NCBI GenBank assembly: GCA_013153295.1
Contig: JAADEV010000089.1
Coordinates: 1 to 14,862 of the forward strand
Reading direction: 5' to 3'
Source of the DNA: Aquificota bacterium
GTDB lineage: Bacteria > Aquificota > Aquificia > Aquificales > Hydrogenothermaceae
DNA: 14,862 bases
Positions 1,057-3,132 of the stretch are shown one piece after another (the stretch's first letter is position 1; each line of letters starts with the position of its first letter). Under the pieces are notes generated by a model, which saw only the letters and a program-made list of their open reading frames with translations, was not told the DNA's origin and did no database searches. Made by a program: the position numbers and the translations under genes.

Positions 1057-1998
1057 ATGCTTGGGATAGAGAGGTTGTTGGAGAAACTTTTTAATAGGCG
1101 TTCAGTTCCAAAAGAGGAAAGGGAGGAAATATCCTTAGAGGATATTGGGACAAAGTATATACACGGCTTGCTGTTTTACAACACATACTTTGACCAGCTT
1201 TCACAGGTTTTAGGTAAAGATACAGTATGCTTTATAGTCGGTGGGTGGATAAGGGACAGAATGGTAAACCTACCACTTGGGGACAAGGTAGATGTGGATT
1301 TTTTAATCACCACAGAACCTATGGAAGTGGTAAAAAGATTTAAAAAGCTACTTGGTAAAGGGGAAATATTCCAATTTGAGAAAGGAAAACCTGTAGCTAC
1401 CATAATTTTTGAGGAAGACGGGGTTAGATACAGGTTTGATTTTTCCCTTTTAGATATATCAGACATTATGTCAAACCCTAATCTGGACTTTTACGACAAA
1501 GAAAAAGCTGTTATAGACAGACTTGAAGAAGACCTGAAGAAAAGGGATTACACAATAAACGCAATGGCTGTAGTGTTTGATGATGCCCTTGGGCTTGGGG
1601 CTTCACAAACAGTTCTTTTTGACCCAACAGGTGGCTTGGAAGACCTACAGGAAGGTATAGTTAGACCTGTATCCCTACAGAACATACAGGAAGACCCTGT
1701 AAGGATTGTTAGGGGATACAGGATAGCAAACCAGCTTGATTTCACATTGGAAAAAGAATTTAGAAAATGGGTAAAGGAAAACCTACACCTACTTGAGAAA
1801 GCCCCTAAAGAACGGATTAGGGACGAGTTATTAAAGATACTTGAGATGGAAAACTCCCACAAAATCCTAAAAGAGATGGAAAGGGACGGCGTCCTACAAA
1901 CTGTTATACCTACACTGAAAGATGTAAATAAAAGTGAGTTAAACCAGTCTATACAAGCTGTAGAAAGGATAGAGGAAATCCTAAAAAAAAAGTGGTAA
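1057..1998 (+). CDS. tRNA nucleotidyltransferase / poly(A) polymerase family, catalytic (N-terminal) part
   Basis: Class II nucleotidyltransferase head and neck of the family that adds CCA, or CC or A alone, to tRNA 3' ends. Visible motifs: GGWIRD at residues 62-67; the metal-binding DVD pair D79/D81; RDYTINA at 163-169; the EDPVRIVRGYR helix at 212-222; and ERIRDELLKIL at 252-262. About 50 residues precede the first motif, more than in many homologues. The frame ends at TAA 1996-1998 right after an A9 tract, and the -1 frame continues with what looks like the body/tail of the same protein. A whole family member is normally 400 residues or more, so 313 is short. Aquifex aeolicus is known to split CCA addition between CC- and A-adding enzymes; the sequence does not show which activity this one has. 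The ATG has no Shine-Dalgarno sequence and sits just after a -10 box. TTG codons at 1075/1078 after GAGAGG are an alternative start. Confidence 0.85.
   Translation: MLGIERLLEKLFNRRSVPKEEREEISLEDIGTKYIHGLLFYNTYFDQLSQVLGKDTVCFIVGGWIRDRMVNLPLGDKVDVDFLITTEPMEVVKRFKKLLGKGEIFQFEKGKPVATIIFEEDGVRYRFDFSLLDISDIMSNPNLDFYDKEKAVIDRLEEDLKKRDYTINAMAVVFDDALGLGASQTVLFDPTGGLEDLQEGIVRPVSLQNIQEDPVRIVRGYRIANQLDFTLEKEFRKWVKENLHLLEKAPKERIRDELLKILEMENSHKILKEMERDGVLQTVIPTLKDVNKSELNQSIQAVERIEEILKKKW
1971..1992 (+). promoter_or_regulatory. Candidate -1 frameshift (recoding) site: SD-like AGAGGAA plus slippery A AAA AAG
   Basis: A run of nine A (1983-1991) followed by G gives the in-frame codons CTA AAA AAA AAG, so A AAA AAG (1986-1992) is exactly in the X XXY YYZ register used for -1 slippage in E. 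coli dnaX. AGAGGAA at 1971-1977 lies about 9 nt upstream, near the spacing of the stimulatory Shine-Dalgarno in dnaX. The zero frame stops 3 nt later (TGG TAA). A weak 5-bp hairpin (TACCT 2011-2015 with AGGTA 2023-2027) lies downstream, further away than usual. One A missed in sequencing, or RNA polymerase slippage adding one A, would join the frames equally well. Confidence 0.55.
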
Positions 1999-2534
1999 AT
2001 ACCCTTTCCCTACCTGATGTGGAGGTATACACAGAAACATTTCTGTCCCAGTTTTCAACAACACCCTTTTTAAAGTTAGCTGTAATTTTACTAAAAGCAG
2101 AAAAAGACAAAACTGGGCTACCTATTGGCAAAAGGGCAAACCTATTTATAACAAACCTGATAAAAGGGACTAAACAGCTGTTTAGTATACAAAAGGGGAA
2201 AGGTAGCCTTAACAGATTTATCTACCAATACAAAAGCCACCTGCCTTATATACTTACTGTTTACACTGTATTAACAGGTGAGAATACAGAAAAGGTTTAT
2301 AGAAAGATAGCCAAACACTACACAGAAAACTACAGGGGAAAGGTTGTTGAAGAACCACTTTTAACAGGTAAGGATATAATACAGATACTTGGTATACCCC
2401 CTTCAAAACAGGTTGGGATACTAAAGGAAAAACTGTTAAATGAACAGATAGAAGGGAGGATAAAAACAAAAACAGAGGCGGAAAACTTTATAAAAGCTGT
2501 TTATAAAGGGGATAAAGATGTTTATAACATTTGA
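1992..2534 (+). CDS. tRNA nucleotidyltransferase, C-terminal (body/tail) part in the -1 frame
   Basis: A 180-residue helical frame that begins just where the catalytic frame ends and matches the distal half of tRNA nucleotidyltransferases: a helical body, then LLTGKDIIQILGIPPSKQVG near residues 122-141, and a closing EGRIKTKTEAENFIK helix. This arrangement (LTG-D-LG-PPS-VG, then INGEIKT-type ending) is typical of the C-terminus of these enzymes. Joined by a -1 shift at AAA AAG, the product would read ...EILKKK-VVNTL... and total 492 residues. Independent translation from GTG 1992 is possible, because GTG overlaps the preceding stop region. However AGAGGAA is about 15 nt away, which is far for a ribosome binding site. 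The catalytic motifs are absent, so alone this part could only be a tRNA-binding partner. It overlaps tmk by 17 nt. Confidence 0.8.
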   Translation: MVNTLSLPDVEVYTETFLSQFSTTPFLKLAVILLKAEKDKTGLPIGKRANLFITNLIKGTKQLFSIQKGKGSLNRFIYQYKSHLPYILTVYTVLTGENTEKVYRKIAKHYTENYRGKVVEEPLLTGKDIIQILGIPPSKQVGILKEKLLNEQIEGRIKTKTEAENFIKAVYKGDKDVYNI

Positions 2535-3132
2535 AGGTATAGAAGGGGCAGGGAAATCTACACAGGCTAAGATGCTTTACCAGTATCTAAAATCCCAAGG
2601 GAAGCCTGTTATCCTAACAAAAGAACCGGGGGGGACAGAAAGGGGTAAGAGAATAAGGGAGATACTACTATCTAAAACAGATGAACCTTTTCCACATATA
2701 GCTGAACTTTTCCTTTATGAAGCGGACAGAAACCTACATATTAACAACCTGATAAAACCCTACCTACAGAAGGGATACACAGTTATAAGCGACAGGTATA
2801 CACACTCAACCTTAGCCTACCAAGGATACGCCAGAGGTTTGGATATAAATCTAATACAACAGCTTAACAACATAGCAACAGAAGGATTACAACCGGATAT
2901 AACATTTCTAATAGATATACCTGTGGAAGAGGGACTAAAGAGGATTACCAGATACAGGGAAAAGGATAGGATAGAGGAGGAGGATATAAACTTCCACCAC
3001 AGGCTAAGGGAGGGATTTTTAAAGATAGCCCAGCAGGAAGGGGACAAGGTTGTGGTTTTAGACGGCACACTACCACCTGAAACCCTGTTTAAAAAAGTGT
3101 TAGACACCTTAAAAGAAAGGAATATAATCTAA
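2518..3132 (+). CDS. tmk: Thymidylate kinase (dTMP kinase)
   Basis: Phosphorylates dTMP to dTDP with ATP, the last step specific to dTTP synthesis, in the cytoplasm. The 204-residue length is normal. P-loop GIEGAGKST is at residues 7-15, EPGGT at 36-40 and the DRY motif in SDRYTHSTLAYQG at 91-103. The LID region (RYREKDRIEEED, about 150-161) carries basic residues, as in the bacterial form with arginine in the LID. The ATG at 2518 lies inside the end of the preceding frame and follows AAGGGG by about 8 nt. holB starts 5 nt downstream. tmk next to holB is a common bacterial arrangement and supports both calls. Confidence 0.97.
   Translation: MFITFEGIEGAGKSTQAKMLYQYLKSQGKPVILTKEPGGTERGKRIREILLSKTDEPFPHIAELFLYEADRNLHINNLIKPYLQKGYTVISDRYTHSTLAYQGYARGLDINLIQQLNNIATEGLQPDITFLIDIPVEEGLKRITRYREKDRIEEEDINFHHRLREGFLKIAQQEGDKVVVLDGTLPPETLFKKVLDTLKERNII

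Follow-up and report, generated by a model that had tools for sequence, protein, structure and literature searches.

A gene for a tRNA-maturation enzyme is divided between two reading frames at a run of exactly nine A in the window, i.e. the whole 14,862-nucleotide stretch of DNA analysed here. Most genomes examined from a free-living bacterial family appear to carry the gene for such an enzyme out of frame, and a second gene shares this condition. The enzyme is most likely a CC-adding class-II tRNA nucleotidyltransferase, with the CC specificity taken from its closest relative only. We are almost certain that the break is real and that the C-terminal half is expressed by a change of frame, and the complete enzyme is probably possible only via a one-base slip of the cell's machinery at A9. 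It is likely that the gene is kept out of frame and that the full-length form is obtained via an extra A, with RNA polymerase as the main agent. We infer that cells make this full-length protein, that they do so through RNA polymerase and not the ribosome, and that they need the enzyme.

The window corresponds to contig C110 in an assembly of 1.1 Mb (75% complete). In the frame starting at 1057, the sequence across the run is CTA AAA AAA AAG TGG TAA, with exactly nine A (Table 1). A sequence-only reading of this DNA had described a catalytic frame (1057-1998) ending right after A9-G, with the missing C-terminal half in the -1 frame. Both observations were confirmed, the two parts comprising 313 aa and 180 aa respectively and 492 aa once fused. 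The same reading had placed the -1 frame at 1992-2534. This stretch does encode the C half, but position 1992 is merely the first GTG of an ORF list, and the frame is open from past a stop at 1935-1937 until it reaches the stop codon 2532-2534. If the window gene is read with ten A, a KKK-VVNTL... junction and a 492-aa fusion (309+3+180) result, in line with the proposal that one gene encodes both a truncated 313-aa and a full 492-aa product. Elsewhere in the window, an ORF running off the contig (3-932, minus strand) resembles by eye the N-terminus of a Rad50/SbcC-type ATPase.

Table 1. Features of the divided nucleotidyltransferase gene and its surroundings in the window.
Feature	Position	Strand	Remarks
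First ORF: head and neck (catalytic) part of class-II tRNA nucleotidyltransferase	1057..1998	+	313 aa, stop TAA 1996-1998; PolyA_pol, PolyA_pol_RNAbd
A9 tract, putative slip site; its first A is the last base of CTA	1983..1991	+	kept in 28/36 informative family genomes
Open -1 frame; from 1992 on the C-terminal half (body and tail), 180 aa	1938..2534	+	homologous to the C half of intact relatives
AGAGGAA, Shine-Dalgarno-like	1971..1977	+	strong in window; not conserved in family
Next gene, thymidylate kinase-like (named by eye)	2518..3132	+	overlaps the end of the -1 frame by 17 nt

Both the PolyA_pol (head) and PolyA_pol_RNAbd (neck) domains score above the curated Pfam cut-offs in the first ORF. 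The match of the C half to tRNA_NucTran2_2 is weak (24.5 bits, cut-off 27), and the Pfam search gave no match to the HD domain in either half of the window enzyme. By eye, the HDIG-K motif of relatives is missing from this copy, which forms a long branch in the protein tree (1.12). The best solved sequence relative of an intact Persephonella copy (L043) is 3wfo (E 5.6e-112), the next other enzyme following at 5.4e-17. A confident structure model of L043 (mean pLDDT 87) has as its top 17 solved fold matches entries of the 3wfo-3wfs series, with TM scores of 0.72-0.78 by query length and up to 0.93 by target length. We take 3wfo-3wfs to be the CC-adding enzyme of A. aeolicus (AaS).

The HD domain of L043 covers residues 304-413. 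Its three lysines, residues 319-321, fall where one helix of the predicted model (303-319) breaks off and the next (321-327) begins. By this model a truncated product would keep the head, the neck and one body helix, and would lose the remaining body and the tail. The body domain of CC-adding enzymes has been tied to tRNA positioning (excerpts of PMC3925840). The A. aeolicus system described in the same excerpts resembles ours in that the A. aeolicus enzyme is the closest solved relative of the intact Persephonella copy and, possibly, in a second, A-adding-like gene of the window genome; the window copy differs in its lack of an HD match. This second nucleotidyltransferase (L001 115-1347, contig C144) has 410 aa. 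Its best NCBIfam match is to A-tRNAntase, with 234 bits vs a cut-off of 1440, and is confined to the last half of this 880-aa model, while the open frames of most relatives exceed 800 aa.

To place the break in context, 41 genomes of the family (f1, probably the Hydrogenothermaceae) were searched, with the tract identified as the longest stretch of A close to where the BLAST match ends. The junction is informative in 36 genomes. Exactly nine A followed by the C half in the same shifted frame was found in 28 of these, from eight genera (g1 10, g2 1, g3 1, g4 2, g5 4, g7 2, g8 6, g9 2), although counts of this type are not independent since the genomes are related. In another four (one each from g1, g4, g5 and g8) the run is A10 and the frame is intact, three have an intact frame without a run (all g6), and in one (G022, g10) the halves are separated by TAA and then directly ATG. 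An A9 or A10 tract is therefore present in 32/36. In the G022 gene (L024), the in-frame TAA and ATG divide the enzyme at the same place into a 289-aa chain and a C part. The uninformative genomes comprise three with a match at the A-adding-like level only (G010, G021, G044), one in which the sequence stops before the site (G012), and one with an in-frame TAG that is cut by the contig end (G008). The 28 include G042 (L131), where a stop occurs 68 codons into the C half and the C half gave no BLAST hit. Unlike the window family, nine Aquificaceae (f2) genomes have the gene in a single open frame of 518-543 aa, and the run is absent from all seven Aquificaceae loci that were read at the site.

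The sequence-only reading had regarded a plain missing A in the assembly as a serious alternative, to be judged by tract length in related genomes. Four relatives do have A10 in frame, but 28 genomes in eight genera carry A9 with the same break; A9 is real and conserved, and hence neither an error nor a private mutation. Homopolymer errors are common in principle, and further breaks occur in the draft assemblies G042 and G008. In contrast, the A9 carriers include the near-complete genomes G015 (2 contigs) and G051 (1 contig). Assembly error was rejected given the recurrence of the break. Furthermore, A9 runs are otherwise scarce: G015 contains 21 exact A9 runs vs about 85 expected (a rough first-order estimate), and G051 contains 23 vs about 254 (first-order, rough, with composition from only 4 kb). 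The recurrence of the A9 break in this gene is more than chance.

A search of the public protein set that scored 7,997 candidates yielded 79 homologous protein clusters, with 61 ending at KKK or KKN plus at most 7 residues, 17 long, and 1 short with another end. The short products annotated for Persephonella hydrogeniphila (322 aa) and Hydrogenothermus marinus (308 aa) are examples. The C-terminal half is missing from annotation because databases carry these truncated forms as the product.

We determined dN/dS for sixteen pairs of genes, fourteen A9-A9 and two A9-A10. The C half gave values of 0.08-0.37 in 13 of the 14 A9-A9 pairs (dS was saturated in the fourteenth, L020/L013), and of 0.17 and 0.20 in the two A9-A10 pairs. 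The N half is more constrained than the C half in all 14 pairs for which both values are finite. The C frame lacks stops over a stretch in which 4-29 occur in each of the other frames. The C half in A9 species is under purifying selection. A sequencing artefact or a decaying pseudogene thus has a negligible chance of being correct, as neither the selection on the C half nor the common occurrence of the break fits such an origin.

An origin of the two halves as separate subunits, with the C half initiated at its own start codon, would resemble the arrangement in G022, where the halves share one frame. The window has a GTG at 1992, and at least one start codon within 30 codons of the tract is present in 9/28 A9 loci. 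However, no ATG, GTG or TTG occurs in the other 19 between the last C-frame stop and 30 codons past the run, and the A10 relatives are fused. Separate initiation hence cannot be the general route and was rejected as such; as an explanation of the divided gene it is very improbable. Purifying selection together with the lack of a nearby start codon in these 19 loci therefore indicates that full-length enzyme comes from a frame change, in agreement with the earlier suggestion that recoding or slippage is required.

The frame could also be restored in the DNA itself, with replication slippage flipping A9 and A10 such that only A10 cells make the enzyme. On the protein tree A10 corresponds to four separate changes, each at a tip next to A9 sisters, and the A9 genome G009 and the A10 genome G004 are near-identical at the site, as phase variation would predict. 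The tree needs 7 state changes, and well-supported branches make at least 5 unavoidable for A9. However, A9 is the state of eight genera, and a tRNA-maturation enzyme would be switched off in 28 of the 32 tract genomes, yet its C half is under purifying selection. Phase variation is accordingly hardly credible.

The anatomy of the tract bears on which machinery slips. We numbered the run 1-9, with position 1 as the third base of the codon before it. The heptamer A_AAA_AAG requires positions 4-9 and the following G, and leaves position 1 free; A_AAA_AAA requires positions 1-7, and position 9 could become G without change to the fused protein. Fewer than nine A would suffice for either heptamer, but all 32 tract loci have a run of nine or ten. 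The run begins with the synonymous third base of the preceding codon, which is TTA in 21, CTA in 9 and ATA in 2 of these loci, although codons ending in A make up only about 47% of the Leu codons in this gene. Among 113 conserved columns, five lack synonymous variation, namely the Leu column before the run and four Phe columns. The base after the run in the 28 A9 loci is G in 21, C in 5 and T in 2. Only a need for the whole run predicts a fixed A-ending codon, a length of 9 or 10 and a variable next base. The run is retained in full whatever its register or next base, as expected of a transcriptional slippage site. A stop in the truncated frame follows within three codons in 32/32 tract loci compared to 40% of control positions, and the third frame has a stop within eight codons of the tract.

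Programmed -1 ribosomal frameshifting, or ribosome sliding, at A_AAA_AAG or A_AAA_AAA on an A9 mRNA would have the same outcome. All A9 loci contain A_AAA_AAA and 21/28 contain A_AAA_AAG, and ribosomes are described as sliding on AAA codons and runs (excerpts of PMC4363877). In G015, 32 of the 40 tRNA matches were scanned (the other eight being 84-90 bases long), and these contained two tRNA-Lys UUU and no CUU. With only tRNA-Lys UUU among those scanned, as in E. coli, ribosomal slipping is permitted. The AGAGGAA motif (1971-1977) of the window sits 8 nt 5' of the A_AAA_AAG heptamer (1986-1992), and the sequence-only reading had identified the two as a dnaX-type signal. Both elements are present in the window, but the G is absent in 7/28 A9 loci and neither the Shine-Dalgarno-like site nor a downstream structure is conserved. 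Upstream anti-SD pairing has a family median rank of 0.36 among in-gene positions, and the downstream fold, scored in a 60-base window with pseudoknots left aside, has a median rank of 0.81, i.e. weaker than usual. The corresponding window ranks are 0.15 (15% of same-frame positions in the gene are equally strong) and 0.14. In three Persephonella loci (L005, L006, L008) the SD rank does not exceed 0.02, and the strong SD-like ranks in the window and these loci suggest that a ribosomal contribution is possible in these species. A dnaX-type combination of SD and hairpin, scored against the in-gene background, was rejected as a family feature, though it is strong in the window. Retention of the whole run, the variable next base and the lack of a conserved SD or hairpin favour RNA-polymerase slippage over dnaX-type frameshifting, and we consider a ribosomal mechanism unlikely.

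We propose that this one gene stays out of frame at exactly nine A, with full-length enzyme depending on the reading of one additional A at this site. RNA polymerase slippage would lead to a mixed mRNA pool (A9, A10, ...). The A10 messages would support synthesis of the full enzyme (492 aa in the window), while translation of A9 messages would stop 1-3 codons past the tract to release the head-neck piece (313 aa in the window). After fixation the A9 state would be self-maintaining, as a synonymous substitution interrupting the run would eliminate the frame change, and tract conservation is therefore expected whether the slippage is programmed or merely tolerated. This explanation needs no dedicated role for the short product. 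The occurrence of A10 at tips only, together with the scarcity of A9 runs elsewhere, hints that A9 itself may be favoured, but mutation bias could equally yield both.

The second gene with a recurrent break is ylxR (PF04296), which was matched in 24/41 family genomes. In 22 of the 24 loci (L150-L173), TGT is followed by the A run and the conserved LxRF part lies in the -1 frame at A9. The exceptions are G001, with A10 and an intact frame, and G014, where A10 requires a shift in the opposite direction. The run is again nine long but in a different codon register from that of the nucleotidyltransferase, and the next base is G in 18, C in 3 and T in 1. In the window genome (L161, G000 C12, near 1500), for example, ylxR comes after what by eye appears to be the end of nusA. 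No match to ylxR was found in 13 outgroup genomes (9 f2, 4 f3), hence the gene has no outgroup. YlxR is described as an RNase P partner in Bacillus subtilis (excerpts of PMC11898665). On this basis we speculate on a link of YlxR to joint control of the tRNA ends. A9 would be a standing decoding element for tRNA end maturation, such that full-length levels of the CC-adding enzyme (3' end) and YlxR (5' end) would both follow how often the polymerase slips, which depends on temperature and NTP supply; the head-neck piece would act as a functional partner, as the short form does in tssM1. We regard this extension as doubtful.

Known slippage systems, described here from excerpts of the cited papers, provide both parallels and differences. 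In Thermus thermophilus dnaX, RNA polymerase slips at nine A and a long and a short product result (PMC1088944, PMC5009743). That system shares with ours nine sense-strand A in a thermophile gene, the long and short products and the nearby stops in other frames; however, there the full-length tau frame is intact and slippage leads to the short form, whereas here the gene is out of frame in the DNA and slippage would be needed for the long form. Blochmannia and Buchnera show frame-restoring slippage at poly(A) and likewise have out-of-frame A runs in needed genes that are conserved between species without decay (PMC3017870). Those are obligate endosymbionts with reduced genomes, in contrast to the free-living family studied here, in which one exact run length is used and two genes are out of frame in most copies found. 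In Citrobacter rodentium tssM1 (PMC4256274), an A run before a nearby stop similarly allows an out-of-frame gene to encode a long product, but that run is A11 and the case was demonstrated experimentally, with both forms needed; ours is A9 and is described here from sequence. The E. coli dnaX -1 frameshift (PMC3711429, PMC5009743) is comparable in its A_AAA_AAG heptamer (21/28 A9 loci) and in the tRNA-Lys UUU complement of G015 (32/40 matches scanned), and differs in that SD, downstream structure and G are not conserved in the family. Search listings of the PMC literature returned no report of a frame break in this gene. The word 'nucleotidyltransferase' is absent from the GeneTack paper (PMC3711429), the excerpted review (PMC5009743) and an Aquificales comparison (PMC4227106), supplements aside, and GeneTack clusters may contain the gene unnamed. 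The family comprises hot-spring and vent bacteria, and its cultured members would allow direct measurement of frame-restoring slippage, of how this state maintains itself in evolution and of any role that the short product may have.

Breaks at A9 were also observed in other genes. A family-B DNA polymerase gene (PolB) was matched in 9/41 genomes, with the loci of G056 and G010 outside the comparison. A -1 break at A9 is present in G015 (L266/L279), G011 (L281) and G002 (L284), G007 has A10 and an intact frame, and G020 and G055 have an intact frame without a run; neither a run nor the N part was detected in G054. Of the 21 exact A9 runs of G015, three (plus that in ylxR) are breaks flanked by long frames, each of the -1 type. 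In an outer-membrane usher-like gene of this genome (L247), the frame is broken at an A9 run; with the pieces searched separately, PF00577 was matched in the second. Two breaks flanked by long frames occur among the 23 exact A9 runs of G051, one of them (L272) in the opposite (+1) sense. The need for an opposite shift at L272 and in the A10 ylxR of G014 counts against the favoured explanation. The family dnaX was rejected as a parallel: it matches above the cut-off in 39/41 genomes with open frames of 467-529 aa, and some A9 or T9 run is present in 7/30 fetched loci.
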